64,000 nt of DNA, from assembly GCA_963920765.1 (NCBI GenBank), contig OY987243.1, forward strand, positions 30,937,060-31,001,059, written 5' to 3'. This document shows positions 39,458-63,685 of this stretch, one piece after another. The translations under genes were made by a program, and so were the position numbers. The notes below the pieces were generated by a model. That model was not told the DNA's origin. It saw nothing but the letters and a program-made list of their open reading frames with translations, and ran no database searches. This DNA is from Ulota crispa. Lineage: Eukaryota > Streptophyta > Bryopsida > Orthotrichales > Orthotrichaceae. Within the stretch, counting starts at the first letter, position 1. Each line of letters begins with the position of its first letter.

Positions 39458-40423
39458 CACTACTAGAAATCTTGCATTTTATGACTGCTAGAAATGACTT
39501 CTTCTGGTCTTTTTTTAAATCATGTCACTAGGGGGGGCTCCGTGTCACAATCTGGAAGATCTCACTCAAAAGTGTCATCGACTTTTAGTCGCATTTCAGG
39601 GCAGTTGTATCAGCAAGTCAGATACAATAGAGGTAATTTATGGGTGCCCAAGGTATACGGTTCACTTGTTTTTTACCTTTGGGTGCCCAAGCAGCAGATT
39701 GGACATGATCTTAAATTGCTAGAGATCTGTAACAGGGTCAGTTAATCGACCTGACATTACCTCTGACTTCCAACGATGTGTCATATCATGAGATGTTCGG
39801 CAATAACTCTGACAGATGCACTTTTAGATTTATTTATTCAAATGGGTGCATTTTGATTGGTTTAGGGTTGTCCTCTAACAAGTAGTGATGTGGACAAGGT
39901 TTAGGGTGACTTCTTGTCACATGAGATGTGACTTTGTCTAGTCATACCATTGCTAAGTAGATATGGTCATGTATTAGGGTACTCCGGTGAATGTGACTAT
40001 GCTGTTTGAATATTAATGTGGCATGTCTCATAGTTCATTGCTCTTAGCAGTCACATATGTCAGATAATGCATTTCTTTTTTGTTAATGTACGCCTACTTA
40101 TAACTGTCATGAGGGTCAATTCTTGTTAGCAGTAGTCTTACTTTCGATGGTCACTGTGGTCATGTTTAGGGTTCATTTGGCGTTCAGTATTTTCTAGTGA
40201 TTTCCGTAGGCTGTATGCCACCCAGAGCATTACCACCGAAAGCCTAGGAATGGGGTTAAGAATATAGGGCATACTCTACTTGCACTACATACATACTGCA
40301 CTCTCCTCTAATTCATCAAAACAATGCATATTATTAGCGTCCAAACCCACGGTCATGTACACAAATAGTTCATTGTTTACATTGTGTGCTTCCCAATCCT
40401 GGCATCGATAACAAAATGCCCCA

Positions 40424-40783
40424 TCACTCCAAAAGTGGTGCCACACCCTCCATGCACCACTTTGTTATAGAGTGCCGTGCATCCTTGAGGCGCTCCATAA
40501 GCGAGTCGTCTCTGCTGTTCCCCTTGTAGAGAAGGGTGTCCTCTTGCCTTGGAATGATCCAGTCCAACGACACTGACAAATTGATGTCCTCAATGAGTCT
40601 ATCGTGCGGCTGTCCTCCTGCAAGGCTAACTACAGTTCCATGTGCAAAAACAGTCTCTGTGGCGTTGTTGTTGTCATCGATGTCATATAACTGCACCTTT
40701 GCACCTACGGCCACAGACATATGTTTAGGGTCTTGATTTCCGGCAAAATTCTTGTCTGGCTCTGGTGCTTCCTCATTCAAATC
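40424..40783 (-). CDS. Transposase_23-type (TNP1/EnSpm) domain exon
   Basis: A terminal exon of about 120 codons following a clean acceptor (TATGTGCAG|GATTTG). The core VAVGAKVQLYD ... VFAHGTVVSLAGG matches the small domain of TNP1/EnSpm proteins (Pfam Transposase_23), typically found at the C-terminus of the accessory CACTA protein analogous to TNPA. Such proteins bind subterminal repeats and assist or regulate transposition. It ends at a stop near the left terminus of the element. Upstream exons are likely among the minus-strand frames between 40925 and 44793. The frame is intact here. Confidence 0.65.
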   Translation of the reverse strand, partial: DLNEEAPEPDKNFAGNQDPKHMSVAVGAKVQLYDIDDNNNATETVFAHGTVVSLAGGQPHDRLIEDINLSVSLDWIIPRQEDTLLYKGNSRDDSLMERLKDARHSITKWCMEGVAPLLE

Positions 40784-40923
40784 CTGCACATATACGCATC
40801 CAATTTGACGACAATTACAGAAAAAAAAAGAATACTCTAACATCGGCATTTTACAACCCACTGATTTGACTGCCACAAGTCATTCATCATCGACTATGAC
40901 TACCGTTAGTCATAAATCATAGT

Positions 40924-43900
40924 CACAATGCGTCTTTCAGCTGCTCTTTCCAAACAACAGTTAAAAGATAGGGCTGGTTGCACGGAAAGCCTACAACAAT
41001 ATGAACGGCCACTGCCTTCGTCATTGTGTCCCTGAGATTTGTGATGCAAAAGACAAGGTCGGACGGATTCTGAGCAAGGGCCTCAAATGGTGCTATAGCA
41101 TTCTTCAAGAATTTTTTCCTCCTCCAACAAAGGGTTCCACTTCCGAGGGTTGAAGACGTTCTTGTTGGGAGACAAAAGCAATAGCTCTAGAGTCCCAATC
41201 TACTTGGAGTACTCGAACCTCTCTGTATTTAGGGTCTGGAATGTTGTGGAATATGTTGTACACGTCTCTAATGCTGCCACCAACTTCCTCACCCCACAAG
41301 GAGCTCCACTTTATCCCAGTCCCCACTATAAAAAAATTTGCTACTTGCTGGAGGAGGGCTTGATCTAAAGGGGACTAGATTCCCACGTCAAAACTCTTCT
41401 ACAATTCAATCAAGAAGGGCCCACACCCACTCTGACGTTTGATTTTCACCTTATGATTTTTCTCACAAAGTGTAGGAAGATTTGGTCTCCACTCTTGCCC
41501 ATCGTGTAGCGGCCGCACATCACACAAAAATCCAACAACATTTAGAACAATAACCTTGTAACGAGGATCCTTGAAAATCCTCACTGGTGGATACATCAAC
41601 CTTGACACCACCTTCTTCTTTGCTACGGGGCTAACCCTTGTAGCACACTTCTTTTGTGTTCTCCCTGCCGTAGGGCTCTCCTGCGTTCCTCCTACGCGAA
41701 CTTCGACACCCTTGCACATAGTCCTCTCCCTCCCACCCTGCGATAATCATCCATGTCACTTTTTCAGTGATGGTAGGGTTTAGGGTGTCACTTACAATAT
41801 TCAGTGGCGCACATACCACATTATCAATGCCCATAGTTCCATTTCTCCTCGAAGCAAAACATGCTTTCTTGGGATGATGTATGAAACACTAACAAACGCA
41901 GTGACATTATAGATATGACTGCACGCAGTCATACGTACAATCATAAAGCTAACACTGTCATTACAAGTATTGTTTTACCGCCCAAGTGAGCACAGATGTG
42001 CAATAACAATGCACATCATCCTCAACAAGAAAACATAGTGCTTAAGGGCTCAATAAGGGGTTCAGGGACCTTTGCCTGCGCCGATGGCCTTTCTGTCTGC
42101 TCCACAGCTCTCTTGCTAACCAACTCCCTGCATATCTTGGGGCGATTTTCCTCCACTGTTGGCTTTCCTTGCCCTCCTTTCTTAGGCTTGGGCTCCACTC
42201 TAAATAGATGTTCTACAAGCACACATTTTATTCTTCCTACTAATTAAGCTGGACTCACCAAATATTCTAACTCAAGAAACATTGACGCTTGTTTCTTGAA
42301 CCAAAAAAACCACCTACGTTCCTAATTCTAACAGACTGGAATTTGACAAGAACAGTAGTCCATGCATATCCTTCAAAAAATTGGAGGAAAGGCCTTAATT
42401 TCAAATGTAATAACGGGAATCTAACCTCAATAAATCATCCACAGCAAGAAAGATAGATACAACATAGATACAAGCAAACACTTCAATATCCAGAATGAAC
42501 GTCCTAGACATTCAAAAGATTTACAATCCACAAACATAAATGGCATAATTGGAAATTGACAACCTAAGCATTCTTGAAGTTGACAATAGTAAAATTGCAC
42601 AACACTACTAATCATCAACCATCAACACAACAAAGACAAGTGCAAGGACTTAAAGCTCCCTACTGTATAATAGAACCTCATTCCATACAAAACAACAAGA
42701 ATTGTGAATCCAAACACTGCAAGTGTGTACATTACACAATTCCAAAACAACAATCTCCACCTCAAGAGTATACTAAATACACAAACACAAACACGGTACC
42801 AACTGCCCACTACTCATTTTCTCTACTAAGAATTGAAAACTAGCACAAGACTGTTACTCGCCACATAAGACCATAGTGAAGGTGACCAAAAAGATTTATA
42901 CCTTGCTCGTTGAAGAATACAAGGTTCCCTCTAGCAGACACTACATCATCAACCACGCACCCAAATAAAATATATGTTTCTAGCACATTATTTCAAGCAA
43001 AGGAATATGACCCTACAGATAATCTCCACTCCGCATATACCAATCACAAGGACCAAAATCCAAGCCTTCAATCTCTCTCATGATTATTTTGGACATACCA
43101 AAACTCCCATGATACAAACTTTAGCAAAACAAGGTCATACACAATTACAGTAATACCCCAAAAGAAAATAGTAACTTTACAAAGGACTCTAATTGAATAA
43201 TGACCAACAACAGAGACTCAAAAGCACATGTTTGAAGCTACAAAAACAGAAGTTCAGCAGAAAGTGCACTCCAAGTCCATGGAAGTCAATAGAAAAAACG
43301 CTCATGCTTGCGGTACAAACATACTACTCAAAATTGTCAGCTCGCAAAATACTCCTTTCCAACAATTTTGACACTGGAAGGCCATAACACTCCCTAGTCC
43401 CATTTCAAAAAAAGCACTTAGTAGCAAACTTCTTTGCGTTACTTTCTCCACCAGAGGAATTGTCCTTTGCAACCTCCTCTGTCGCATGACTCTTTTGCCT
43501 CCCTGCCTCCTTTAGCACCTTATTGTTGGAGCAGCCTTGCAAAATCTCCACTTTGGCATATATTGGTGCAACTTCTTTCGGAGCCAACATACGGTGCAGT
43601 GCGACTTGGGAAGTAGTGATGACCTTCTCTCTAGTAGCCACTACACCCTTTGCAAAAGAAAGAGGCTCCGTGCTCAGCATGGCCCCTTGTCCTACAAACT
43701 TCTTTTTATGTCGATCAATCTAGAGATTTGGATGCTTATGTTGTCTTTGAGGGCGGTGAAATAAGTCTGCAATTGCACCATCGCTGTGTCTTCCCACGTT
43801 GCTCCTGATACAAGGCCTCCATGGCTTTCCTGGCCACGTTCTTTACATCTTCTAGGGTTTGTAGATCCAGTACCTACCTCCACTTTTGTAGAAGGGTGTG

Positions 43901-44793
43901 ACAATTCCATCGCCTGCAAAAGGCAAAACTGCAGACTGTCAAGGAAAGAAGTTATATGATTGTAGATGATCATGCAACAATCAATTGCCATGTGAGTGAC
44001 TACTAGGACCTTAGTAATACTTGAAAGTGATAACTCAAAAACCCAAAACTACGACAACTGCAAATACGTACTAAACTTCGGTCTTAGAGTTGCAATACAA
44101 ATTGCATGCTAGGGTTAAGGTGCATTCAATCTCCATTTTGCAACTACAACTACCGCACTTAAAGGCACAGAGGGGTGTATGCAAGACCAAAAAAGGGATT
44201 AAAAGGGGGGGGTGAATCTGACTCACCAGTCACGATTGCATAGAGGCCTCTGATGGGCTTGACTGAGTCTTGGACTCTAGGGTCCGTCGTGCAGTCTTCA
44301 TCAACTTGGATTGAACAAAATTTTCAAGTTCACCAATTTTCTTCTTGAATCTCTTGGCGTGGATAGGCTTGACGTACGTTGGAATGGGGCTTCTTTTATC
44401 CAGGAACTTCTTCATGTTCGACTTCTTCGTCTTCATCTGCTTCTTTAAAATGTTCAAGAACATCTTCTTTGGCACGTCCCCAAGGCCACTCCAATACTCA
44501 AATAGGGCCGCCATCTTTTCCTTAATGGCAAGAAGGAACGCTCTAGGATGACTGTCAAAGTTATTATTTTCTCACTCCAAATTCTGGGACAATCCACGGA
44601 GCTTTGTCAACTACTTTGACCACTTTCTTCCAACAGGCTTACCATCTTTATCGATGCTCACCCAATCAAGGGGTCGTGGCGCCACCGCTTGATCTGCCTC
44701 CCTTTTGCTGGCTTCTTTAACGCATGCGTTTTTTTCCCTTTTTTGTAACACTTTTGGGTGAACTTTGTCGTGTAGAGCGCGCCTTGAGAACAC
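40924..44793 (-). CDS. Probable upstream exons of the TNP1/TNPA-like gene
   Basis: A series of minus-strand open segments (44793-44611, 44514-44230, 43991-43692, 43680-43405, 42222-42022, 41719-41399, 41326-41105, 41108-40923) is rich in Lys, Glu and Arg with splice-like boundaries and lies upstream of the Transposase_23 exon. The first contains APRPLDWVSIDKDGKPVGRKW and the second is lysine-rich (MKTKKSNMKKFLDKRSP), as expected for a DNA-binding accessory protein. I cannot define exact exon joins by eye and I do not recognise each piece. Some segments contain stops and may be decayed. Confidence 0.4.
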
Positions 44794-47208
44794 GCAGGGT
44801 GTCTTGTTGCAATTGTGTGTTCCTGACTAAGAATCGTTGTCGGTGTTGATCTTCAGTCTTCAATCTTTCATTGGCCTATCTTGTGGCTAGCTCTAGCCTA
44901 ATATGACTGCTAAAATTCAGTCTCGATATCATGAGGTTTATTAGTGAAATGATCACAACTGAACTCAAAGGTCTTAGCTTCAATCTTTGATATTCCATCA
45001 TCAGATGTCTAAACCTTTGCCTCTTTGGCCTTTGCACTTGAGCAGTGCACCATCTTTGACTCTTTTCTTGTCAATTCTATGAATGTAACTTTGTTGCATT
45101 GAGCCTTATGGTCTCCTATTATGGCAAATTTTTTGTCAATCTCAATCTATTCATCCATGGTCATGTGAGTGTTCAAAGCACTCACCATCACAAACTTTGT
45201 TGTCATCTGTCTCTTTCGCTTGATAATATCAATGATTAGCTCATGAAAGTATTTCTTAGCTATGCCAAATGCTTCCCTCAATGTGAACTCGATCTTGGGG
45301 TCCAAGATCCTCTCCTCCAATATTCCCTTCATATCAATAGAGGTCTCAATGTAAGACTGAAGCTTGTAAGTATGGCTCTTCCCCTTTGACTTGCGAGAGT
45401 CTTCTTTCTCATGGCTTCTTCCGCTACCGCTAGACTGTTCCTAGTCTTTATCAGGAAGAAAATCATTTTCAGGGTGCACAGAGCTTGGGCTTTGTATCTT
45501 TGAGCGCCTTTGAATTTTGCGCCTCTGATCATTTGCAGAATCTTTCTGCGCTTGAGCCCTCTTTTTTGATGAAGACTCTTTACTATCCTCAATTTCAATT
45601 CTTCTATGCTTCTTTTCAACTGATGCCTCATAGTGATCAACGTTGGCTTGATCTCTCTCGAAAAATGCCTTGATGCTGCTTGCATCAACTGGATCTTCTC
45701 ATCCAGTTACATTTTTGATGGCTTGAGCTCTTTGCTTCATTAACGTGGTTCTTTGAGCAGGTAAAATCTCAATTGAGTGCTATTCCACCTCAATGTGGTA
45801 TAAATAAGCCTCGCGTATATATATAGAGCTAAATTGTCCTATTTTTCCCTCCATAAGCTTCTTCATCTTTTCTCTACCAAAATTGGTTTTCAATGGAGTC
45901 TTTGTAGATGAATCATGAAGCTTGCTGTCTATGAATTCAACGATGTCATCTTTTAAGGCTTTGTTGCATTTTGTGCAGTCTAAAAGGCGATGCTTGCCAT
46001 CTTATTCGCTCTTGTCACACCATATGCATTTCTAAAAAAGTGTCATCTCTCCATCAGATGGCTGAAATGAGGAAGAAGAACTAGATGCCTAAGACTTCTT
46101 CAACTCAATAAATTCCACCTTTAGTTTTTTGAAATTCTTGATGAGTTCTTCAAAAGTATTACCTTTGTTGGTCTTAGTTATCTTCAAGATAGACCTTAGA
46201 GTTGTCAATGATGATGGAGCAAAACATACTTTGAGACTTTTTGGAGCTGGAATTGAATCAGTGTCTACTTCTGCTTCAAATTCTTTTAACTTTATATGTT
46301 GTTGTTTGACCAACAAGGACAACATCTCTTCCATCTTCTTCCAATTGGTGGTAAAACCTCCTTCTGTAGTACGATCTCCAAGAAGCAAAAGAAGTCTATC
46401 CTCCAATGCAGCATCACCTACTTGAAAGAAAAATTTTGCCTTCCTAATGTTGAGGAGGCGTTTCTTTATTATGGGTAATTGAGAAAACTTCTTTTTGAAG
46501 GCCTTCAGCAGCTTATGAGTATCTATGTTATCTCCTGGCCGCTGCTCCATCCGCTCAAGAAAAGATTGCCTTGTCATCTTTTCCGTATTCTTGTCAAAAT
46601 ACTCGTCACGTAGGCGCTCAGCAAAAGCAATCCAGGTATGAACTTTTTGTGGATCACTCGCATGCGGTCACAAATGTTAGGCACAATTGCCATGTTAAAG
46701 GTAGCCATCATTCAATTCTCATTGACTTGATGCACTTCCATCTCGCAAATATAAACTCGCAAGAACTTGGTTATATTCTTGCTGTCAAATCTATCAGTCT
46801 TTACAACAACAGCTTTCAATATTTTGGTGGCCATTTGACCACCCTTGTTGGCTCGATGTTGCTTTATGAATATGCCAATGCTCCTAAGAAATCTTCTATT
46901 GGTATTTGAAGTCCACTGACACCTCTAGTAGTGGCGCTTGGAACTTCTTGAGGCAAATTAGCTCCACTAGCACTACTACTACTTGCGTCAAAAGCCTCGC
47001 TATTGTCTTTCATGTCAATAGACGCAATAATTGTCTTAAAGCTTTCTTAGTGGAAGCATCAAATGTTATGTTGAGAGGAGCGCGCCTTGAGAACACGCAT
47101 TGTGTCTTACTAAAATTGTGCATCGCTGACTAAGAATCGTCATCGGTGTTGATCTTTAGTTTTCAAATCTTCAATCTTTCATTGGTCTATCCTGTAGTTA
47201 GCTTTAGA
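44771..47208 (-). mobile_element. Gag-only LTR-like retroelement fragment
   Basis: Two direct repeats of about 125 bases flank the unit (44777-44897 and 47081-47208), sharing GAGCGCGCCTTGAGAACACGC and GACTAAGAATCGT. Between them the minus strand carries a gag-like frame. No protease, reverse transcriptase, RNase H or integrase is present. This resembles the gag-only, terminal-repeat non-autonomous elements described in plants (TR-GAG). The repeats might alternatively be internal retrotransposon repeats and not true LTRs; no target duplication was recognised. Confidence 0.45.
45147..46577 (-). pseudogene. Ty3/gypsy-type gag-like polyprotein, interrupted
   Basis: Open segments 46577-46089, 45688-45329 and 45332-45147 form one decayed reading frame with stops between. 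The N-terminal part has a helical, Lys/Leu-rich gag-like region with FLERMEQRPGDNID. A CIWC ... H-x4-C knuckle (about 46035-45990) with an in-frame stop inside, then LKTNFGREKMKKLMEG, follow. The C-terminal part has FTLREAFGIAKKYFHELI and IIKRKRQM, which I associate from memory with gag of certain Ty3/gypsy elements. A database search would be decisive. The stops make it non-functional. Confidence 0.45.
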
Positions 47209-49309
47209 GGTACAAGGATTAAGGTAGGGATAAAAACCCACCACATATAGAACGGGTAGATCGGGACAGCAGACACGAGTTGCCATCCGTATGACGAGAT
47301 CCTAAAATCAAATTTACGATTTGTTGGCCAAAACTCTAGATTGTGAGAATAAAGCAAGTCTCAACTATGTGGATGATCAATCCCATTTTTTTACCACAAC
47401 AATAAATGAGATTAATTTTAGTTTAACTCAAACTGCCCGCAACAAAGTTTATAAAATAGAATAAAATAAATTGGCAAACGAGCTTTCAAAACCAGTTAGG
47501 AATAACAAAATTACATCTTACACATATATAAAAAATAAATCCAAAACATTCTTTTTAAAATCTTCATATTTTCAAATCTTTGAAGTCTTCATATCTTCAA
47601 GTCTTCATATTTTAATAAAAACAATGGAAAAATTACAAATAACAAGTTTTAGAAAGGCTGCAACTTTCTATCTAGTGCCATAGATAGCTCAAAAATCCAA
47701 ATGCTAAGTGTAATGACATTTTAGAAAGCACTTCTAATCTTTTAACATTTTTTCAAATTTCAATTCAATCTAAACTACTATCTAAAAGTTAAGCGAATTC
47801 AAAATAGAGGATCTTCTTCACCCTTACAAACTAAGCACGGCTTTTTTAAACCTTTATAACTTTTGTTTCACAAAACTTCCATACAAATATGATATCAATT
47901 TAAAAAGATGATACCATTAGCTACAATTTGTACAAATTTTGCTTTAAACTAAAACTTTGTTCAAAACTTCTAGTCAATTAAAGTTTAGGTCTCAAATTTT
48001 TAGAAAGCATCTAACCTCCCAACTTCTATACTCTATAACTCCTTCAATAAAATTCCAAATAAAATGATTAAAAATAATTTAAAAAGCTACAACAAAATTC
48101 GACTACTTTTAAAATTTTCAAAAAAAAAAATTTTACGGTTTAAAAGTTGTAATTCCTCAAAGTTTTGGCCTTCTCCCAAAAAAAGGCAGCCACCTTTAAT
48201 TCTTCACACCTCTATAACTTTCTCCCCCAAGCTCCAAATCACAAGTTTAAGGACTTTTAAAAAGATATGATTAGGATGAACAATCCTTTCAAATCTTGTT
48301 GCAAAATGATATACAAATCATAAGTTATGGCTTGTCAAAGTTTCTGCCTTACTTCATAGTTTGGCTTTTTGATTCCAAAATTCAACCTTTCATAACTTTT
48401 GCATCACAACTTCAAATCAAACTTGCAAACTCATTTTGAAAAGATAACTATATAATAAATAATTCTTTTAAATTTAAATTCAAAATTGTGTATACACAAA
48501 ATTTTTTCTTACTTCAAAGTTTCGGTATTTTTCTTCTCTTTCAACCAACACTCAAACACGAACTTCCAATATACTAAAGAATCTCATTTCTTTGATTTTG
48601 ATCCTAGCTAAGATAAAGAGGTGGGATACATCAACCTATGCCCCTTTCCATCTTTACCCTACCATAGATACCAAACCCCTTTTTCTCTCACACTTTCCCA
48701 TTCACTTCTAAATCTTTAATATTTTTATTCAAACAATGGCAAAATATATGAGCCTTCTAAAACACTTAGATAAACATATAAAAGGAATAATCACAAGATA
48801 AACTCCAGTGTTAAGTGGCCACGTGCCTTTGCAAATATATATCAGCGTGAAACAATTATCTTCAGTTGCCAAGTCGTAAACTTGATTGGCTGGAGAAGCA
48901 GTTGTCTTTGGCTGTCCGCTAGTTTGTGTTTGAATCTAATCAGACTTGTCAAGCGGTGATGTGGCCCATAGCTTAACACTTAGTGAGGCAGGAAATTAAG
49001 CTAGCCAACCCGTTGCCTACCTCATTGAACTGTACATGTGACAAAACAGCGCAGCGCCGTGGAATCTGTAGCCGCTACATTGTCATTCAACCGTGGTTCT
49101 CACTATGGCCACCTCTTTTGCCTCAACTATTGATTTATTCAAATCAACACAAAATTAGATATATAATACGTATCTACATGATGGAGAAATCTCCATTATG
49201 ACAACGTCTCAGCTCTTCGTGAAGGCTATGCATATGGAGGACAACCATGTCCTCTCTTTGGTGGGTGTGCGTTCACCCCCTTCTCCACCAAGCGTTTTCT
49301 GAGACAGAC
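47209..49309. other. AT-rich segment inside the large CACTA element
   Basis: No coding sequence. Repeated CTTCAAATCTTCATATTTT-like units occur near 47560-47620. It may be intron of the minus-strand gene or further insertion. Confidence 0.4.
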
Positions 49310-50695
49310 TTATTCCAAGTTTAATTGGAGTAAGATTTTACTTTGATTTTCCCGCTCTTGGCTGTTGTCATCTTCTGCACTGCTCCTTGTGGCCTCCTCC
49401 AGCGGCCACTCCTCTATCTTTGAAATTGGCAAGATCTTCCGACCACGTTCCTCCTCATGCAAGTGTGTACGAGGAACCCTTTGCCGTGCTGCATTTCTTT
49501 CCCTCTCCTTTCGACGCTTGTTTACTTGGCATTGCCCAGAGGCGATTTCTTTTGGATCTCTTGTAAAGTAACATTGTATGAAGCAGCAAAAGCAAATGGG
49601 GAGCAATACTACAGTACAAACACTCACTGGTGTAGATTTATTTTTCATTTTAATCACATTTCAGTCACATTCCTAGTCATATGACACAAAATATGACTCC
49701 TTCTCATAGCTAGTGGTGGATTCTTACTATTCTTTGTCTAAATAAGCCATGAAGTGGGATATGGTGATGGTTTACAAATATTTCTTTTACATTTGAAAAT
49801 AGGCAAAAGAGTATCTGTCATGTTTCTAGAGAAAGTAACTGCTAACAGTTACTTTAAACTTGTAAGTCTACGTCTGGATTCCTGTAATAAAGCTTCTTAA
49901 GATGTAAATGAACTTTTCAAATATAAAGATGCATGCAAAGAAGACGTCCAAACATGACATGCTGAACATGGAAAACTACAGGAGAAAGCCTCCATTGTAT
50001 AGAAAACATAATCAAAAGTGAAATTCATAGCAAATCAACACACAACAATAATTACGAGTCACAGACTTTGACTTTTGATTATTGAGGTACTACTGAGCAC
50101 TAAGAGAAGCCACTTAAACAAAGCCCAGTAACACTTTCAATACACAAACAATTTTCTTGAAGGCTTTGATAAAGTGACTTACACAATACCAAGACTAAAA
50201 AACCATCAGCACAACCCATAGTAGATACAACCACAATGAGCTACGTAGTGAAACATATGCACTTCTTTTTTTACTTTTGCACTTACACTTGCTGTACTGA
50301 GTTTTCAAAATGCACTAACCTAATTGGTTGCGTACCTGTACTTTTGGAGTTGCCTTGTCTTTCTCGGAGACCTCCTCCAAAGAGGACGGCTTGTTGAGGT
50401 CTTCCTTGCTCCGGTAGTTAGGGTCTTCACTATCCGCGCTCGAATCAAACATTTCTTCTGTTGATATAGCAGCCTGCTGCGATGTTTCACCTCCTCCTCG
50501 CCTTGGGATAGCCTTTGGTTCTTTGAAGAGTAAACGCTGAATATTTCCAAAAACCAAAGCAAGCTCATCAGCTACACTCTGTAGAATTGGCACTGTAATA
50601 GCAGGAAACCTAGAGACTTTGCGGAATAACTTTGCTTGCATGTCATCAAGTAGATTGGCAATCATCCACGCCAAATTCTCTATGGGGGCTTTCAT
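49310..50695 (-). CDS. Charged minus-strand frames, unknown, inside the CACTA element
   Basis: Two open segments, 50695-50315 and about 49600-49310. The first starts with ATG (MKAPIENLAWMIANLLDDMQ), is partly helical then acidic (SADSEDPN), and ends at a donor-like KVQ (ACAG|GTACGC). The second is strongly basic then acidic (NKRRKERERNAARQRVP). I do not recognise a family. They may be the 5' exons of the minus-strand TNPA-like gene, separated from it by the retroelement insertion. Confidence 0.35.
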
Positions 50696-53600
50696 TTCAT
50701 ATTTTTTTGTAATTCTACTTTAAAACTTCACCTGTCCAAAAATCATAAATCGTTCCACAGTTAGTCGCAGGTCAAGCACTGTATGTTCCATATTGCAAGG
50801 CCGGCCAAGAGAAAGTGGTTGTCATTAGAAAGGATATATATTGCCTGCATGCGTTGGATATCATTTTACCTAGAATATGTGACTGCCTTTAGTCATGTGA
50901 CCAAAGTCACATAAAGTTTTCTGGAATTAGGGTTTTTGGAGTGGTTTTCTAAACAAATACTTTAAAAAACAATTTTCCAAAGAAGTATAGACCTTGTAAA
51001 GTTAGGGCTTTAGTCTCCACGTACCAGCACCTACTATAGGAGTCAGATACATTGTACATAGCAATGCAGTTAGAGTCACGGAAGAAAATCTTAAACCCCA
51101 AAATGGCGGTTGAAGCCAACAGCAACGTACTTCTCTGTTCACGGCCCACTACAGTTTTGTGCAAAGGAACTCCTCAAGGCCAATCACAGTTCTATGCACA
51201 CCAGCACGGAACTCCGAGGGGGTGGGGGAGGGTTAGGGTTGGAGTTCTCAAACAAAGATGATCTCTCCATTCATTCAACTGTAGCCTGTCACTGATGCTA
51301 ACGTACTCATAGGATTCTAACTCACAAGGCTTCCAATATCAACGACCAACTCCCGCACCTTCACTCTCACTACAGTTACTAATGTCCCTACACCGCCTAC
51401 CTGTCACTATCCTTTTGCGTACTACTCTTTAGTTCAGCGTCTTTTTTTGCAGTGAGTTTTTGTACTTCCACCTATTTGCCTTCCGTGAACCACAATGGAG
51501 TGCTCCAACACCGCGCCGACCAATAGATCTTAGAGCGTGAAGTTTGAGCTACACGTCCAGCTGCTCAGAGGTGTACAAAATTGTACACCTCGGAGGACCT
51601 AACCTACAACAACTTCAACGTCCACTACAAAGTACGCTATATGCAATACAAAAATACTATGGAAGAGCGCAACGTCAACAAAAAGTCCAGGTATGTCACA
51701 TACCCTTTCGGTTGATGCTCTTTTCCATTTGTTGTTTGCACCAATTCAACCTCCTTCAGCTTAGAGATGTTGTCTTCTATGTTTTGTTCTCCCACGTTTA
51801 AGAAGTTGCAATGATGCAGACTGTCCAAGTGCCTACAGCTCACAAGCGTGTTGTCTGGGAGAGTGGCGTTGGAACACGCCAGATGCGCAGCAATTGTGCA
51901 AGTGATGAAAACTAATTTGGGGTATTCAAGGGAGGTATGCTAATGTGGTCAGAGCGCCGCCCTAGAACGTCAAATTAGACATCACGGTGCTAAGCGCAAT
52001 AAATGCAAGGCGGCGGCAACAAGGTACACTTATAACCTTGTGATTGTCTCGAATATTACAATATTCATAATTCTATGTCTTCAATTAGTCATATGATTGG
52101 GTGGATTCAGCTTTGTCCGTGGTAGGGATGGTTTTAGGGGGTTTATGGTGCAAAATTATAGGGTAACAAGTTCTAGCCACTTCTTTCTTCCAACATGGAC
52201 AAGGAGGTGAGAGCTTACCATATTATGTGCACTGCATAATGTAAACTCTACTGTAAACCAACCTCTACAACAACTGCTTTCAGAAATGAACCCATTTATA
52301 ATGGAAGGATCTATTGGCCACATTGTTCACTTCAGCACCAAAGAGAGTTACGTAGAATTGCAGACCTGAAATACTATAAGTTGGTGTTTTCCTGAATTAG
52401 AACAAGACAGCATGTACTATGATCATTGTTCTCTGAAATTTGCCCCCTTCCTCCTTTAGGTATTAATTTGTATCAAATTTTTGTAGTTTGTACAGTTTAG
52501 GGTCTTCCATTTAGAAGTCCTAAAATTTTGCCTTCACATTTTGGGTAAATTTTATAGTCCACCCTATGTTTTCTACATATTTGACCTGAAAAATTGATAT
52601 TGGAAATCTACGCCATCACCTTCTTCTATGTGTGTATTCCATGGTTTTTAATGTTACTATTTCTAAACTACTCATCAAGCAAATATAAACACATTTCTAT
52701 CATTCCTCTGTGTTTTGGTTTGGTAGATTTTGCGTGAGGATTAGGTGAGACTTTCAAATACATGAAATACATATGCTTGTAGTTTCCGGCCGTCTATTAA
52801 TATCAGCTGGTTTCTTGTCCTATGTAGGTTTGGTAAAACCATACAAACCTCAAAATCAGTAGAAGATGTTTCAGCTTCCCGGATATGACATTACGAACCA
52901 AAATTATAGTGACAATTGTTTTCGTATGACCATTACATGCAAGGGAGGTTAACATTACATTCTATGCAAGATTTGATGAAATTGCAAATAAATTTCGAGA
53001 AGAAAGAGTGAATGATTTCAATGCCTACCTTGAAATTTATGGCCGAACATTGAGCTAATTTTACATTTTGCGGAATTAGGCATGTAAATAATGATAGACC
53101 TGAAAAAAAATGTTCTTCTTTTATGTGGCCTCCTCATTGAAGTCCTCCATGGAATAGTAATGTCTCTTGATTCTCAAAAGAGCAGCATTACAAGATAGTT
53201 GAATTTACATTGCAACAAGACCTCCACATTTTCTCACGACATGAAAAAAATATATCCAGTTCTATATGGACTCACATATAAACCTTGGAATGTTGATGAA
53301 ATAACAATGTTGTTCTGACGGTTTGAATGTTAGGGTAGGAAGAAACATTTGAATGCTACATCTTGCATGAAAAGGACGCATTAATTGGTTTTTGGAAGGA
53401 CAAAACAAAATTTCACAAAAGGGCATTCAGTCAATGATTTTTTGGACACACAGATCTTCTTAATCATAATCTATAAGAGTTGTCAAAACATGTATACTAT
53501 AACTCAGATGGGATTCCCAGGGGATTTCCTACATTCCACTAATTTAGTTGAGTGATCACTAAACTAAATTACGCTTTCTCAACTTAGCACTATGACTGTC

Positions 53601-55138
53601 GTGAGTCATTTTGCACAGTCCATAATGACTCATTTTGGTCATTATGACTGCTGTGAGTCATTATGGACTGTCCAAATGACTCACGGCAGTCCTAGTGCTT
53701 AGTCAAGAAAGTTTTTTTTTTGTAGCATAAATTGTAGGCTGAATTTAAAGCAACAAAAAATTGAGTTCAAAGAATTTTGAAAGTTACTTATACAAAGCAG
53801 AAGTCCTAGACCTGGCAAAACACGTTTATTGTATTTACTTTGGAACATATAGATGATCACCTCGGAATTAGTTGTTTTGTATTTTGCAATGGTTAAGGAT
53901 AACACCTAAAGAACTCTCTTTTTGTTCGTTACTTTACTATTTTTGGGATGAAAATTTTAAATCTGTATACTCATTGGACACAAATAGTTTTATTTCCTGA
54001 GTTCATTTAGAAAAACTCTCAGAAACAACCAATAGGACGTCTTTACTCATTCTATTTAATCTAATATACCCTAGAGTTAAATCCTTGTGGATCAATGCAA
54101 TTATTGTTTCTATGGAAAACCATCACATGCTTCAATTATGGTATGCTTTGTAACATATTTCAGTGACACTTCCAAAACTGAATTCCAACCCCTTCTGTTT
54201 GATTTGCTCACTCTAGATATGTGTCTGGCATGCGTCGGTCCCAGTCTTCCATTGGATGTGTTTATTCCAATGCATTCTTTGTCATTGTCTTCAGATTTGG
54301 TCATGCTCTAGAATGAGTAGTGTTGGATTGTGGTGTACAGAAATTTCAGTCTATGCCTTTCAGATTATCATGTATCTTTCTGTTGATTGCAAACTAATAA
54401 AACCTTCAATTTTATGACTACGACATATGACTTTCTTGAGTCATTTTGAAACGTATATGACTACGAACATGAAATCTGAGGAGACATAAAATATCTAAAT
54501 CACAGCATTCTTTGTGTCATATGGAGGGGTCTGGGTTTTTGTTGTAACTAGATGAATGCTTGCCTTTTCCCGCATTTGGTTTTACAGTGGTTTAGTAGGT
54601 CTCTCGGCCCCCCTACATTCACCGTATAGAAAGCAACGTGCACTACTTAGAGAGCGTGAAATAGGAAGACATGTTTTGAAACTTATCATATTAATGTGTT
54701 TGAGGCATGTTCAGTCATGACTGCGCCATCTTTGACAGCGCAATTTTGCAAAAGGGATGCTTACTAGGCGTTAACCATGGCTGAGATACTCTTCCAAATC
54801 CGTTGCACGCCGTACACCTTGTCAAGCCATAGATGCGGACATATGTGTTTAAAAATACTGAACTTCTGATTAGAGAATGAGATATAAGGCAGGGATGGAT
54901 GTTCTCAGAACCATCTCCCATACCCTATACTGTCATAGACACTTTGCTAAGTGTATGCATTTGACAGCCGATGGTATTCTTGTCTGAAAGCTTTGCCCAG
55001 GGTTGCATGTTTTTTTACTAAATTCTAAACTCCGCAAATTAGAAGAGACCATTTCACAACGTAGTTGTTGTTGGTGGACCATGCAAATCATCAAGTACTT
55101 AGTTATGGCTGCAATATTTAAATAAAGATGTTTGCATG
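50696..55138. other. Central non-coding region between the two divergent transposon genes
   Basis: No recognisable coding sequence. If both flanking genes are real, this is the shared promoter/intron region. It contains several copies of the ATGACT-N6-AGTCAT palindrome (50879, 53592, 53644, 54427) and a compact foldback at 53583-53703. Confidence 0.4.
53583..53703. repeat. Foldback built from TGACT/AGTCA motifs
   Basis: CTTAGCACTATGACTG at the left pairs with CAGTCCTAGTGCTTAG at the right, and CAGTCCATAATGACTCA in the middle pairs with TGAGTCATTATGGACTG. Two copies of the dispersed 18-base palindrome (53592, 53644) lie within it. Confidence 0.8.
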
Positions 55139-55148
55139 GTCTTTGTAG

Positions 55149-55330
55149 GGCACGTCGTTGGAGGACTTTGAAGGGTTGAAGCATCTGCAATTATGGCAAG
55201 GAGAAGAGAGACAAGCAGATGCTTTAGGTCTATCAAAATATCCTTGTCCATGTGTGGAGTGCATTGGAGGGAAGGTCCTCCATAGATCAACTATTAGAAA
55301 GCATCTAGGAAGCAGGAATTGAGACCTGGC
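55149..55330 (+). pseudogene. Transposase-associated zinc-finger exon, frameshifted
   Basis: After an acceptor (CTTTGTAG) the frame reads KYPCPCVECIGGKVLHRSTI followed by RKHLGS. This C-x-C-x2-C ... H-L pattern is that of the transposase-associated domain found at the N-terminus of plant TNP2-type proteins. The frame meets TGA directly after; a one-base shift would continue it, so a frameshift is likely. It is the expected first domain of the downstream TNP2. Confidence 0.5.
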
Positions 55331-55439
55331 TTTTGCGACTTCCATTCTGGTGAGGACTTCTCTCATACAGTTTGTTATGCGCCTTCATAGTACTGGTGTT
55401 CACCCAAATGAAAATTCATGTGCATGTATGTCTTGTAGG

Positions 55440-55984
55440 CCACCTATGCACCATCTATCCCAAAAGCATGCATGAGGTTGCTCAAATCATTCTTAAACAC
55501 AAAACATACTCTAGGAGGAGCAAACTCAAACGAACTATCCAGTAGCACACTTCCCTTGCAGAAGCGTAGGTCCACTCTTTTTAATGGCCAGTGGTGCGAT
55601 GGGCCTATCCCCAAGCTAACCAGATTTTCCTATTTTGGTAGAATGTGGGAAGTGCAAGTGTCAAAGTATCCATACATGAGGTGGGGTCTATTTGCAATGC
55701 AATCAGCCAAAAAGGGGGAAGAGTTGCTTCCATTTGTTGGAGCTGAATATAAAAACCAAGAATATAGGACATTGGTAGAAGAAAACCCCTAGGTGAAATC
55801 TTACGCCATGGAAGTTGAGAAAGACTTGTATATAGATGGCAATGTTGCTTGCGGGAATGTGGCTGATTTTATTAATAATTCTATTGGACGGGAGGACATA
55901 GGAAATGTCATATGGAAGTTTAGAATGCTCCCCAGATTGTGGAACTTATTGGAATGGGGATATGTAATGACCCTGGCGTCTTGA
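55440..55984 (+). pseudogene. SET-domain-like frame inside the CACTA element
   Basis: The frame follows an acceptor (TCTTGTAG) and is read through an in-frame TAG at about 55790. SET-like landmarks appear in order: YMRWGLFA (compare GWGLFA), KKGEELLPFVGAEY (compare the KGE-x-Y-GE strand), and IDGNVACGNVADFINNS (compare the D-x-G-N-x-A-R-F-I-N-H-S catalytic knot). The His of the NHS motif is replaced by Asn, and the expected Arg by Asp. A further shift near 55930 restores PQIVELIGMGI-type sequence. Lysine methyltransferase activity is therefore unlikely in this copy. It lies between the zinc-finger segment and the TNP2 core, either as a captured host gene or part of a fusion. Confidence 0.5.
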
Positions 55985-57098
55985 GACATCCTAGCCGGAG
56001 AGGAATTGTATGCTCTTTATTCTGTAAATTGATTACTTATGTATGTAGTGGTTTCCCTGGATGTCATACTTTCACTTACAATAGGATTAGACGTGGACTA
56101 TTTTGGAAGGGCCATTTCAAGGACCAAGAACATGACAGCATGTAGTCACATTTCTTTTCATGTCATTGAGAATGTGACTCTGTCTTGCCAGAGTATAAGT
56201 GCATGCATGTGACATTGGCTGGCAAGGCAAATTGTGGTACATTCCAGGAGGTTTAGGCAAGAAGCTCACACTAAGTTAGAATTCAATCAGTAGCACGTAA
56301 GTAGTTCTGAAATTGTCAAGAAACGTCTCCCCTAGAAATTGAAAGGGGCCATCATTGCCAACTTTGGAAATCAAAATTATTTTTGCAGCGGGTACCTGAA
56401 CCCAAGTGGAGCTTTGTCTTAGTTCATGAAGGTAGATCATAATCAAAAAAATGAAGTGCAGTTGGTTACAAGCTTTGGATACTCCATATATTACGTAAAT
56501 GTCAGTCTTTGCTATTGGCTAAACCGATAGGGAATTGTGTCTGCAATCGTCCACCCAAAAAACACACATTTCACCTTTTAGTGTGAATTGAATTTAGATT
56601 GAACTTCTATTTGTTTTGGACGCCTCTTACTCAGAATACTGAACATTTTAGTCTTCTGTAGTAGGTTAATGAAGGCAAAGTAGATGTGATGCATAAGATT
56701 TTAGTCACGCCCACTTTGTATGGCCACCTTTAAAAGAACTTGCTGAGGACAATGTTGTTGCTTCTATGGACAAAGTGGGAGCAATTTGAATGTCTGTAAA
56801 TCATATTGTTGCCTGAACGCAACTATTCTAGAGTCTAGAGTGATCATTGTGCATATCCTTTGTAGTTGTAGTCAATTGTGTGCGTAGACTCCTGAGATTG
56901 GTAGGGGTAAATTTGGTCAATATGATGAGTACATGTAAGTTCATATGATGGTAAGTATAAGTTTGATTTGCCAAATATTCTTGGTGATATGACTTCTTGT
57001 AGTCAAAAATACCGAGTCATAGTAGCAACTAAAGTCACTGACTTCAGAGTGACACTGTGCATTTCTAATATTGTACTGCCATGAGTGCATGAATGTAG

Positions 57099-60000
57099 GA
57101 TGAATATTCCGAACTTAATCTGGAACCTCCTGCACAAAGAAGGCAGCAACTTCAGTGTGCTGAAACAAACAGCATAGGATGGCATGAATCAGAGGTGGTT
57201 GATATTGACATCGTTGGAGAAGTGGATGTACTCCGAATGGTGACGAATTGTTTCAACCAGTACAACAATGTAAATAGGGAGCATGTAGAAGAGAACGTCA
57301 ACATCCAAGACGCATGATTCAAAACTCCTGATGACAACGACAATGAAGAGGAATGTAATGGGATCCTAGGATCAAGAGAGGTGGAGGACAAAAGAGGAGC
57401 AGGTACCTCAAGGGTTAGAGAGGACCCCGGTGGAGTGGACCTGGAGAACTTATTGCGTGAAGCTACTACACCGCTATTCCCTGGGAGCGAGGCAAATTGC
57501 TTGACATCGATGTTATTGTTTTTGGTGTGTTGCACAACATTTGGCGTGCCAAATAGCTTTATGGAAGAATTGCTGAAGCTATTGACAAGAACCCTACTAC
57601 TGAAGGATAATACATTGCCCAAGACTTTCTATGAAGCAAAGACCTTATTGATGAGGTTGGGGCTATTGTATGATTCCATTCATGCTTGTAGGGACGAGTG
57701 CTGCTTATTTAGGAAGGAGTTGTAGAACGCTACAAAGTGCCCAACGTGCAAGAAATCTTGGTATGTACCCAACTCGGGCCAAGTACTTGTGAAAGTGTTA
57801 AAGCACTTCCCGCTCATTCCTCGGTTGCGTAGAATGTACAGCTGCACACGATTGGCTGAACTCCTACAATGGCACGTATATGGTGGAAGCAAAAACAATG
57901 TAATGCGGTCCATGGTGGATTCAAGGGCTTGGAAGCATGTCAGCAATAAGTGGCATGCCTTCGCACGTGAGGGCCAAAATGTTAGACTTAGCATTGCCTT
58001 GGATGGTGTCAATTTGTTCCACAACCAAAGCCTCAGTCACTCTACATGGCCTGTAGTTTTGCTCAATTATAACCTTCCACCATGGTTGGTGACAAAGAAT
58101 TTCTTCATGATATTGACCTTGATCATACTTGGGAAGGAAAGTGTCACTGATAGGAACGTTGACATATACATGGCTCCGTTGATTGAGGAACTTCAGATGT
58201 TATGGGAGGGTGTTGAATGCTTAGATGGATCATCCAGGGTACTGCAAAGAAAGCCTTCACACTTCGTGGCATGGTCTTGTGGACCGTCAATGATTTCCCT
58301 GCTTACGGGCTAATTGCTGGCCAAGTAACAAAGAGGCATAAGACATGTCCAGTGTGCGGGCCAAACATTGTTACGCGATGATCTAAGGCTCTCAAGAAGA
58401 ACGTTTACTTGGGACACAAACGGCATTTTCCAATGGAACATCAGTGGAGAAGACAAAAAAGTAACTTTAATGGAGGTGTTGAATTGAGATCGCCACCTAG
58501 GAAGATGACTGGACGTGAGCATTTGAGTTAAGCAATTGACCGTGAAGATTGGAAAAGCAGCACTGCTGAAAACGATGGTAGACAAACCATAGATCCTGTT
58601 TATGCTCATGGAGTGAAGCGCAAGACATGTTTGTATGTCTTGCCATACTAGAAGGTAATGATCAACCATAAACCATGAAACTTAAATAGAAGGAATTAAT
58701 TAAGTGACCAGGATTCACCCCTTCTAGCAGTACTTTTATGCACAGGGTTTTGCAGTGATTTTTGCGTTTTTAAACATAGGTAGTGGATATAATTTGCAAT
58801 TACTAGAATGTAGTCCTGTCGAGACACTATCGTATAACCGGTCTGAGTTACATATTCAGGCATGTAACTCAGAGTGTGACTCGGCGTCTCCCCCATCATA
58901 TTAGGTGCATTGTACATCAGAGTGTCAACATCCTATCAGAATATGTATTTATTGCACTCTATGGTTATGCTGTAGTAGGATACAGCCTAGTAAGTTTAGT
59001 CGTATGAACAAGAGTTCGTGCCATGTGTCGGAAATATTAGAGTTTGAGGAGTCACCGGCCATTGGCAGTAACAATTGTATTGTGGTGACATGTCCCCTTC
59101 GTAGTAGTAATATGACAAGACTTATAAATAATTTCATTTAATGTGACTATGTCTTGAGTCATATCAATAGGAGATAGGTGGAACGGTTATTTGAGGATGA
59201 CAGGAAAGATCAATGTGGTGTTTTGTAGTGAGTACAGTCATTTGATTTTGACTACTGAAAGCAGGAAATGTAAAATGTAATGTACTTATTGTTTTGCAGG
59301 ATCTCTTAATCCAACACACAATGGAAGTGATGCACTATGAGAAGAACATCTCAAAGAACATTATGAAAACAATATTTGGCAAGAAAGACACCATGGGAGC
59401 GCGTTTGGACATGAAAGAAGCAAATGTGAGGAGGTATTTGTGGCCCATGGCCGGGAGGAAGGCTGGCACTGCTATGCTTGCACAAGCACCGTACGTGTTA
59501 ACCAAGGAGAGGCACGTCTTTGTGGACCAAATACGGTCATTGAGGACCCCTACACAATATGTTGATCAATTGAAGAAGCGCGTGCACATGGATGGATCCA
59601 TGAAGGGCCTTAAGTTGCATGACTACCATGTCTTGATGCAGTAGGTGTTGCCTTTATGTATTCGCACCATGATGGAAAAGGAAGTGCGCACTGCAATAAT
59701 TATATTATCACGTGTGTTTAGGAGGGTTTGTGCAAAGAGCATAGCAATAAATGACATTGTGGATTTGAGGTCAGATGTTGTCATTACCCTGTGCATGTTT
59801 GAGAGATCATTCCCTCCCTCATTTTTTGATATTATGAGCCACTTAGTTCTCCACATTGTTGAGGAGGTGGAAATCTGCGGACTTGTGAATTCATGTTGGA
59901 TGTATCCAGTTGAGAGGTATCTGGAGATGTTGAAAGGTTATGTTTGTAATCAAGCCGAGCCGGAAGGAAGCATGGCTAAAGGATACGCGGTTGTTGAGGC

Positions 60001-61388
60001 ATTGGGATTCTACATTGAATACATGCAAGACTACAAGGTGACAACCAAAAGAATATGGGATGACAAGGAGGACCCTTCCATGAATGACAAAATCATAGAA
60101 GGCAATGGTGAACCATGTTGACTACCCTAGAACTTCTGGGAATGGATACACAAGTTTGTCCTTAACAATGCGGCGACATTAGAGGGTTGGAGGAGGTTAT
60201 GGCCCTGAACCAAAATCATTATCTCGCTTGTGCAGCAAAACTGTAACAATGACTTATTGCTGCAAAATGGGTTTGTCCAAATCCTTTTTGGAGTCATGTA
60301 GACATGTCTGAGTGCGGTTGTTTATTTGTATCCATATGACTAGGAATAGTCACGTATGACAAGTTATGTGACTGAATTCCATTATATTCAGCTGTGTGAC
60401 TTACTGCATAAAATATTACTGTCCTCACTTATTGAACGTAGTTGCATTGACTTGACAATTGTATGAGGAATCCTGCCATAGCTTGGACATTGAACATTTG
60501 CTATTGTGCAGGAAATACGAGGAGGACATGGCAACTTGAGTCCAGAAACGTTTAGAGTACAAATGTTGGAAGCGGAAAAGCAGATTGGTGTATCCAATAG
60601 AGCTTAGAGAAGAGGGTTTCCACATATGGTTCTCCAAGGCAGTAATAAATGCTATGGAAACAGGGGAAGAAGATGTCAAAGAGGATGTGCAAACTCTTAG
60701 AATGCCCCCATCCAATCAAGCAAAGTCCTATCGAGCTATGTTCACATTTAGAAACCACATTAGAGTCCAAAGAGTAGAAGAGCTCCTCACAACAATGGAC
60801 TCTGGAGTGGCTGCGACCTTTTGTCAATTGTGTTGATCAGGAGTAAAAGATACAAATCCAAAGACGGCAGATCCAAAGTATGTGGGATGGGTGCAGGATA
60901 TTCTATTAGTGGACTACGGACATTTCCAAGTGGTTGTCTTACATTGTAATTGGGTGGTGGCGAACACAAGGGGCAACAACGCTACTATGACACGCAATGC
61001 ATATGGTTTCACAAGTGTGAACCTTGACAAGTTGATTCCTCAATCTGCACAGTCATTTGCATTTCCCCTTCACGTGGAACACGTATTTTTCTCAACGGAC
61101 ATTACAAAACCGGGCTGGAAAGTTGTGCTGCGGAAGGAACCTAGGGGCGTGCAGATATTTTCAAAGCATCAAGAGACACCTAATGTGGATTGTATCTCCT
61201 TAGGTAGGACTACCAATTTTCCTAGTTTAGAAGGTGGTGGCTCTTATGAAGACCCTCCTCTGGAGGCTTGCACTTCATACAATGCAGTAGAAGTGGGGTT
61301 AGACGTTGTTGCCAAAGCGTTCTATTGTTTTTGTGTAGACAGTGCAGAAGAGGAGGACCTGGATTATAGCAACTCAAGTGAAGATTGA
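57099..61388 (+). pseudogene. TNP2-type CACTA transposase (Transposase_21 family), decayed
   Basis: Exons: 57099-58654, 59300-about 60205, and 60512-61388, with GT-AG borders. Landmarks in order: LLREATTPLFPGSEA, FYEAKTLLMRLGL, CPTCKKSWY, NVRLSIALDGVNLF, WPVVLLNYNLPPWL, DIYMAPLIEELQ, TVNDFPAYG, CPVCGP, EVMHYEKNI, KLHDYHVLMQ, FPPSFFDIMSHL, WMYPVERYLEMLKGYV, and a C-terminal segment (YGFTSVNLDKL, GWKVVLRKEPRG) of DUF4216 type. This protein cuts at the CACTA ends. Stops at about 57315 (TGA), 57723 (TAG), 58378, 58530, 59642 (TAG after HVLMQ) and 60121, plus a frameshift near 58230, make it inactive. It diverges from the minus-strand Transposase_23 gene. Confidence 0.85.
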
Positions 61389-63682
61389 AATTTAGTTATG
61401 GGTTTCAATATGATACCAAAACCAAAGGTTGCCATATGGAACTGGCTTCTCTACATGTGTGGTAGTAGTAGAGATTGCATGTGTTGCAATACTAAGGAAT
61501 CCAGAACGTATCCTATAAAGTGCAAAGCATGTGCGGTCAGCAATCCACAAAACTTGGAAAAGTAGTATCTAATGATGACAGCATATTTGAATAATGTAGC
61601 ATGTATTCATAGAAAGCGTGGTGTTGAGTTTGATGTTACAGTCATCCAAAAATCGGAATGTAAACAAATAACAAGCGGGATTGTTTTGAACATCAAAAGC
61701 TATCATGATTCATAATACATTAGTAGAGTACAAAATGATAGTTAGCAAGCATGAGTACTAGAAGCCTTCATTTGGAGTTCAAAGCGCAAGCCAGTTTTCT
61801 TTTCAAAGCGGCTACGAAAAATCTACGGCAGAGTCGGCACTTCTTGACTGTAAGGCGTGACTGTCAATAGTCATGTATGGTTAAATGTCACTCAGAAGAG
61901 TCAAAAATTTAACACATGGAAAACCCGTTTTGTTCTGTATTGAACATGTGTGGATGCCAAATTTGAGGTCCTGAAGTGAAATTCATGCAATCTTGAAGCA
62001 TGATTGTGAATGCCTGAATGGGGGTTTTCTCACACTCGATGCAACTAGGAAGAAATACAATAGAGTAGTCATGGAAGGGTGGTTTTCCTAATTGTGCAAA
62101 AATGCCCTCAACCATAGACATTCACAGAGAATATAGAAGGTTGACCCTACGACATTAGAGCACCTTTTTACTGAAATAGTAGTACATGCGCATATGAGAG
62201 AAGATGGATTGGCAATTTGGTCTCCCGTACAGCAAGAAGAAATTATATCACCGTATTGCAAGAGCAGATTGCACACGTAGTCTGATAAAGCATAATTACT
62301 TAATTTCACTCATAGAAATGTGCATCCAAAGCAGATGGAAGTAGAGGTAGCCGGAGCTAAAGAAAGTGACATCCAGTAGTAACGCCGTAGTCATTTTTGG
62401 CCATGTATGATTGGAAGGTGATTGATGGAAGTCACATTTTGTAGTTCTAGATACCCCTTTGTCCTTGTATAGTCATTGCTAATAGTGTACTAAATGATTA
62501 AGAAGTAGTGCCCAGAAAAGGTAGAATGTAACAAAACATTCATGAGACAAGAAACAATAAAACCTAAAGTAGGTTTTGTCATAGTACTACCTTACAAATA
62601 TAGTGGAATATAGAATTTGAGGTTAGAGCTGCTAATGTAAAAGATAAACATGCTCAGAACCTAATTTTGCCACAGAGCATGAATAAATATTGTAGAAGTA
62701 TGTGCTTCATAACCCTAAGCTTCTAGAGGCATATTGTTAGAGAAGAACATGTACCCTCATGGAAGACTAAGGAGGAAGTCTAGTTCACAATTTGAAAAGG
62801 CACTAGAACACCGTACATTTCTTAGAATTACCAGGTATATGATGAATGTTACGCCACTAGGAAATAATAGAGTAGAAGTCATACTGTTAGCAAATGAAAG
62901 AATGAAGGTCACATGAAACTAATGAGCGTATATTGTGGATGCAAGAGGTGACTACATTACTTCAAGTACTAAACTATAGGGGTTACCCTAAATCCTTTCC
63001 CTTACAGCAGCTGCATCTTGAATCCCTAAATCCCTAAACCACCCCTTTGTAGACAAAGTATAATTTGTGGAACTCTTTTCTAAAATGCATAATCTTGATT
63101 TCATATAAGAAGTAATGAAGAAGCAATTAACCCTAAACCCTGCCAATTAGGTAAATTGACCTAAAACCTAAACCCCCTCTCGTAACCCTCCCTAGGTAGC
63201 AGCCTCCCCCCTAAGCCCTCCCTAAAACCTGAACCCTTGAATCCCCTAAATCCACTGTACATCCCATGAAACAAATAAACAATGTGAAAGTGGCAATAAA
63301 TGTGAACTGCACTCCTTGAATGCGACTTACAAAATAACTGCCAGGACGCTATCTATGCAATAAACCGCAACTCCAGGGAGTGACCAAAAGAGAAGGAAAA
63401 AAAACAAGTGGCAAAATAGGACTAGTGGAAGAGAGTCGGACCAATGACGTGCGTGTAGATGGGAGTACACATTCCACAAGGTCGTTTGCAGATCGTTCCC
63501 TACCACTATGACAACGTTCTCAATAGATTGTTGCCCATATTTATGGGATTCCATCTAAATTTGTGACTAGTAGTGATATTTGCATGACTAGAGCATTTTA
63601 ATCGCTAGAAAAAGGACCCACAAAGCCAAAAATGACCTCCAGTCATATTTGCGAAGTCATAAAATACAGGATTTCTAGTAGT
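61389..63682. other. Right subterminal region of the large CACTA element
   Basis: Non-coding. It holds scattered TGACT/AGTCA motifs (61857, and a variant near 63630), a degenerate CCCTAAA tract (62980-63250) and the right terminus. ORFs at 61909, 62088 (-) and 62734 have no recognisable features. Confidence 0.5.
62980..63250. repeat. Degenerate CCCTAAA (telomere-like) tract
   Basis: Many CCCTAAA, CCCTAAAT and CCTAAAAC units (ATCCCTAAATCCCTAAACC, AACCCTAAACCC, CTAAAACCTAAACCCC) on the plus strand, interrupted by unrelated sequence. It is the plant telomere heptamer in degenerate form, inside the transposon and far from a chromosome end. Confidence 0.6.
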
Positions 63683-63685
63683 GTA

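Follow-up and report, generated by a model that had tools for sequence, protein, structure and literature searches.

A spaced palindrome, consisting of two six-base inverted arms around six free bases (RTGACT-N6-AGTCAY), recurs along a 24.2-kb CACTA (En/Spm-type) transposon of Ulota crispa (Bryopsida, Orthotrichaceae). The transposon lies in a 64,000-nucleotide stretch of contig OY987243.1 (assembly GCA_963920765.1, positions 30,937,060 to 31,001,059, forward strand), hereafter called the window. Most safely, the dyads can be described as recognition sites for a dimeric, sequence-specific DNA-binding protein of a CACTA group, which serve the element ends and, in part, the interior. Beyond this, we consider it about two-thirds probable that some of the CACTA elements in this genome encode a DNA-binding protein whose operator is this motif, and that the sites work in transposition at the ends and in regulation in the interior.

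Motif counts and spacing between dyads

The window was searched with RTGACT-N6-AGTCAY, allowing up to one mismatch, and dinucleotide shuffles served as the control. This gave 16 matches, nine of them exact, all inside the element between 39928 and 62435; shuffled windows averaged 0.53 matches and never had more than 2. An initial annotation, made from the sequence before this analysis, had listed 12 places, every one of which was recovered together with its variant at 59143 that has an 8-base spacer; four sites (52075, 53625, 53676, and 62418) had been overlooked. Its statement that positions 1-39457 hold none is correct at up to one mismatch, and two sites (13664 and 22680) appear there at two mismatches to ATGACT-N6-AGTCAT. 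It had also placed the sites outside coding exons, and none overlaps the coding blocks defined here; this freedom of the blocks from palindromes has a chance of 0.006 if 13 sites are independent (the block limits were defined by us, partly from alignments).

The initial annotation proposed comparing the motif with shuffled sequence and across spacers of 0-15. The density is far above that of the shuffles, and spacer 6 stands out within the element, with 16 sites at which at least 11/12 arm bases match and at most 3 sites for any other spacer. When all inverted 5-mer pairs were scored at spacers of 0-20, TGACT-N6-AGTCA ranked first in the element, with 11 occurrences where 0.10 were expected, and the flank outside the element had no pair of comparable strength.

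Genome-wide counts (275 Mb) were controlled by reading the pattern backwards. Spacer 6 was found at 1113 exact places (26 in the control), spacer 5 at 70 (46), and spacer 7 at 197 (30). Chance origin of the motif was ruled out by the shuffles, this genome-wide control, and the scan of inverted 5-mer pairs. Separately, many of 50 listed places with ATGACT-N7-AGTCAT share a near-identical spacer by eye and apparently represent a repeat family of their own.

Dyads also occur in pairs. Those separated by 8-30 bases number 236 in the genome (0 in the control); among 50 listed pairs, 38 have starts 30-33 bp apart and nine have starts 41-42 bp apart, and once look-alikes were merged into 28 clusters, 21 and four clusters, respectively, kept these distances, which equal about 3 and 4 DNA turns. 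Pairs separated by 31-60 bases number 132 (0 in the control). Among 50 listed wider pairs, a distance of 51-52 bp between starts is seen in 16, which by eye come mostly from one or two families of miniature inverted-repeat transposable elements (MITEs), and 7, 7, and 8 start 59, 60, and 65 bp apart. Given these additional distances, regular spacing is weak in the 31-60 base range (R 0.29).

Element ends, related copies, and the transposase intron

Half-sites of the dyad occupy a fixed place in most of the CACTA ends surveyed. Using a CACTA-end pattern, 13 ends were surveyed from the window element, a second complete CACTA element (E1; L005-L007, C1:1724093-1745223), and five MITE loci (L015, L017, L019, L020, and L023); only one end of L015 was caught, and L013 and L022 were not included. 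In 10 of the 13 ends, ATGACT or TTGACT begins at base 24 (the window's 3' end being counted after a one-base correction); one further end has ATGATT there, and the half-sites of the other two, both from L023, are degenerate. Among the MITE ends alone, six of nine have the base-24 half-site. This fixed position ties the motif to the transposition machinery. E1 is 21.1 kb long, has 33-nt ends that are 97% alike and a TGA target site duplication, and carries 16 exact dyads along its length; its half-sites are most concentrated in a kilobase close to one end. By blastn, E1 and the window element align in pieces only. Several of the fetched motif loci are small CACTA-ended elements with a dyad inside. 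These loci were chosen for holding or adjoining exact palindromes, so that sampling bias affects their counts. The initial annotation had set the sites apart, as interior, from the subterminal TNPA repeats of known elements. Interior dyads were confirmed, and the half-sites in the terminal inverted repeats, the dense end of E1, and the MITE-like copies make that description incomplete.

These placements also bear on a host transcription factor, for example of bZIP or WRKY type, that would bind the dyads and drive element expression. The cores recognized by bZIP and WRKY types resemble TGAC, and the half-site is similar to such TGAC-type plant motifs. However, CACTA elements or CACTA-ended MITEs contain several of the exact dyads that were inspected (part of the loci were assigned), the half-site keeps its distance from most of the transposon ends surveyed, and the 39-kb flank has no dyad with at least 11/12 arm matches; we consider a host factor quite unlikely.

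The transposase intron was compared among related copies by using 18 of the 23 listed other transposases that are at least 63% identical to the window protein (five partial matches were left out). The region after DUF4218 was taken from L025/L026 and 17 further loci, and the window was excluded from the counts. These 18 introns hold 34 N6 dyads with at least 10/12 arm matches (1.5 in shuffles), 20 with at least 11/12 (0.1), and four perfect dyads (0). Of the 18 introns, 16 contain a dyad of 10/12 or better (shuffled mean 1.4) and 12 contain one of 11/12 or better, and other spacers give at most 8 sites at the 10/12 level. Within introns, distances between dyads favor 32 bp (8/23 pairs). When columns were aligned on the window site, with the window included, the arms were 82%, the spacer 44%, and the intron on average 58% conserved; this alignment may favor the motif, and the dyad counts are independent of it. 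Given that the intron copies are interrelated and that two (L034 and L041) look nearly identical, the sites are not independent events. The intron comparison supports selection on the dyads in the window's group. The motif is thus present in related CACTA copies and enriched in their transposase intron, where the initial annotation had suggested looking, and its description of conserved arms and spacing around a free middle, as in a dimeric binding site, agrees with both the genome-wide spacer counts and the intron alignment.

The same introns address an RNA or DNA hairpin, such as a splicing or small-RNA signal; splicing or hairpin signals were among the candidate roles in the initial annotation. 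Four single palindromes fold at z -1.7 to -3.1, and 53570-53715 folds at z -15.9. Against this, none of 43 arm mismatches (32 sites, introns of 17 loci) is compensated and eight positions are G-T, and the arms preserve their letters beyond what pairing alone would need. This lack of compensation points to a sequence-specific site, and a hairpin function was rejected on this ground; we hold it to be very improbable.

In order to place the motif among transposase groups, 50 listed of the 132 wider dyad pairs were compared with transposases from 150 listed (C1 to part of C6, window excluded). A listed pair lies within 20 kb of four of the eight transposases with 50-62% identity to the window protein, of none of the 11 with at least 63%, and of none of the 60 below 50%, where a random point has 0.9%; within 30 kb, two of those 60 have one. 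A 53% transposase just beyond the covered part begins some 1 kb after the final pair listed. Transposases below 50% identity were rejected as further owners on this 0/60 within 20 kb and on the single copy inspected, which has no exact dyad and one 11/12 dyad.

The window element, its companion gene, and candidate binding proteins

The coordinates of the element and its parts are provided in Table 1. Its inverted ends are CACTA terminal inverted repeats (30 nt, 93% alike, one flank base included), a 3-bp target site duplication of the CACTA (En/Spm) kind is present as TAA on both sides, and the Transposase_21 match is that of a tnp2-type transposase. The initial annotation ended the element at 63682, one base short of the end given by the sequence. 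A nested repeat (47057-49207 and 44774-44896), probably a retroelement, is 72-84% identical to other loci, including places within E1; the whole block taken as nested (42500-49210) has no palindromes. A degenerate tandem array of AAAGATTCTC-like units lies just left of the element (37845-38586).

Table 1. Features of the CACTA element in the window (window positions)
Feature	Position	Strand	Remark
CACTA (En/Spm-type) element	39458..63683	+	24.2 kb including nested repeat; inverted ends; transposase open reading frames (ORFs)
Target site duplication TAA, left	39455..39457		Read from sequence
Target site duplication TAA, right	63684..63686		Read from sequence
Left terminal inverted repeat	39458..39486	+	Half-site ATGACT at base 24
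Right terminal inverted repeat	63655..63683	-	Half-site ATGACT at base 24
N6 palindrome	39928..39945		Exact to RTGACT-N6-AGTCAY
Gene 2 (ORF2 position)	40424..41743	-	Opposite transposase; in-frame stops here; relatives FCP/SCP (NIF) phosphatase-like
Two N6 palindromes (40866, 40896)	40866..40913		30 bp apart; MITE-like segment
N6 palindrome	41915..41932		Directly upstream of gene 2; related copy L016:4668 has a similarly placed one
Part of nested repeat	47057..49207		Probably retroelement end; without N6 palindromes
N6 palindrome	50879..50896		Interior
N6 palindrome	52075..52092		Interior; one mismatch
Long-hairpin MITE-like copy	53574..53711		Four N6 palindromes (53592, 53625, 53644, 53676)
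N6 palindrome	54427..54444		MITE-like segment
N6 palindrome	56132..56149		One mismatch
N6 palindrome	56989..57006		One mismatch
Transposase gene region	57318..61385	+	Transposase_21, DUF4218, and DUF4216-like ORFs
Transposase_21 ORF	57726..58310	+	E 1.1e-36
Variant palindrome	59143..59162		8-base spacer
DUF4218 ORF	59645..60118	+	
Transposase gene intron	60119..60539	+	Dyads in most related copies; limits from ORFs
N6 palindrome	60336..60353		In the intron; arms kept, spacer changing in related copies
DUF4216-like ORF	60837..61385	+	Under its cut-off
N6 palindrome	61857..61874		
N6 palindrome	62418..62435		One mismatch

The last exon of gene 2 has 34 matches in the genome, of which 32 were entered as gene-2 places (two second fragments were left out). 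Of these, 20 have one of 213 listed transposases no more than 15 kb away (1.07 at random), in 19 cases on the opposite strand; in the window, gene 2 and the transposase are 17 kb apart, and this pair is outside the transposase list used. In copy L016, the sequence ahead of the last exon matches NIF (PF03031), with an E of 8.1e-4 for its open part; reading through one stop gives an E of 4.6e-4 and 20.4 bits, where the curated cut-off is 21.8. The window copy, with its in-frame stops, gives no NIF match. The genome has 101 NIF matches up to an E of 1; six, all above the cut-off, lie within 1 kb of one of the 32 gene-2 places, and 15 of the 101 have a listed transposase no farther than 15 kb away, where 3.9 would be expected. 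The usual catalytic motif of the NIF family looks lost in gene 2.

The initial annotation had also named a Transposase_23 protein as a candidate binder. No Transposase_23 or Transposase_24 match up to an E of 10 was returned by Pfam for the second ORF in the single ORFs scanned, a search limited by broken frames, and Transposase_23 was set aside as binder for want of Pfam support there. E1 has ORFs opposite its transposase (L006:7782-8700, plus strand) whose features look TNPA/Transposase_24-like; Pfam gives this no support. A PDB sequence search yielded nothing of use, and among the titles returned by searches of open-licence papers, none suggested this CACTA/MITE motif or a CACTA-linked C-terminal domain (CTD) phosphatase gene.

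Proposed function and relation to known systems

In the mechanism that we propose, the half-site ATGACT would be recognized at base 24, a constant distance from the cut ends, and two facing half-sites with six bases between them would form a dimer site whose halves, with centres 11 bp apart, are separated by one helical turn. Adjacent dimer sites, often about 3 or 4 turns apart, would then be presented on the same DNA face. The array at the ends probably aids assembly of the transposition complex, like the TNPA sites in En/Spm. Interior sites, in introns and between genes, may be partly kept by selection, and they probably let the protein control element transcription or prevent silencing, as VANC does in VANDAL. 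What the sequences show is the motif with its spacing, its position at the ends, and its conservation within one intron; binding by a protein of the element, and the effect of this binding, are inferred.

Several observations weigh against the operator reading. The window's close relatives have mostly imperfect dyads, with none of 11 transposases in the part covered within 30 kb of a listed wider pair of exact dyads against four of eight in the next group, and a single exact site was seen in the 20 kb taken from the closest relative. The window's own group therefore keeps weaker sites than its sister group, which makes it less likely that interior sites are essential there. Spacers 0 and 15 in the introns (6 and 8 sites) exceed all 200 shuffles, by far less than spacer 6 does; spacer 15 is near the usual gap between dyads. 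Regular spacing weakens past nearest neighbors, where strict long-range phasing of the dyads is unsupported. No match to the gene 2 of the window's group was found in E1 by tblastn, so gene 2 is not an obvious shared binder, and a shared binder, if any, may be the transposase or another ORF. Finally, seven of the 16 window sites lie within MITE-like segments, which means that part of the dispersal is nested insertion.

This last point is the basis of a further explanation, in which the interior sites are debris of MITEs of the same kind inserted into the element and only the end sites work, for transposition. MITE-likeness was called when the alignment score against seven MITE-like sequences exceeded the null maximum by more than 10 points. 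The alignments at 40866-40913 and 54427 passed this margin, and the core of the long-hairpin segment at 53574-53711 recurs at other listed genome places. One 125-bp MITE has at least 83 matches on both strands (40 of 224 candidates scored). On the other side, the remaining nine of the 16 sites fall below the margin (52075, with a score of 35, exceeds its null maximum of 34 by 1 point), and the dyads of 16 of the 18 matching introns stand around a drifting spacer. Debris as the whole account of the interior sites is unlikely in our judgment.

Comparisons can be drawn with other CACTA elements and with VANDAL elements, which belong to a different superfamily. PMC2613891 describes the subterminal repeats of En/Spm and of soybean Tgmt* as short motifs in both orientations near the ends, recognized in En/Spm by its second protein; those of Tgmt* can form palindromes and are confined to 159 and 732 bp at the two ends. 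The likeness to TNPA sites is thus a short motif that recurs close to CACTA ends in either orientation. The repeats of known CACTA elements have a subterminal position (PMC2613891, PMC8195511), whereas the dyads described here also lie many kilobases inside and have a fixed 6-base spacer, unlike those of Tgmt*. The VANC21 motif YAGTATTAY is concentrated in non-coding parts of VANDAL21, including introns, and is bound by an element-encoded anti-silencing protein (PMC5735166). The dyads resemble it in being dense in non-coding regions of one transposon family (here two large elements); they differ in being inverted pairs, whereas the VANC motifs are arrayed in the same orientation. In Spm, the element protein TnpA activates the CACTA element, and this is correlated with demethylation (cited in PMC10398659). 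Control of a CACTA element by its own protein would be the shared feature, putative in the present case.

The interior role suggested here draws on these accounts of VANC and of Spm TnpA (PMC5735166, PMC10398659), and an anti-silencing role of the interior dyads is possible by that analogy. A bolder version, which we regard as speculative and would not expect to hold in full, is that a CACTA end-recognition site has turned into an element-wide code, in which helically spaced dimer sites in introns would let an element protein coat the whole transposon against silencing, as a CACTA counterpart of VANC, beside a companion gene akin to FCP/SCP proteins, which are RNA polymerase II CTD-phosphatase-like.

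If the operator reading is true, one site would serve both cutting at the ends and control in the interior. From the constant 6-base spacer and the regular distances between dyads, the geometry of the bound protein can be predicted sharply. How anti-silencing evolves out of a transposition protein would then be open to testing, in a superfamily in which TnpA already connects the two.

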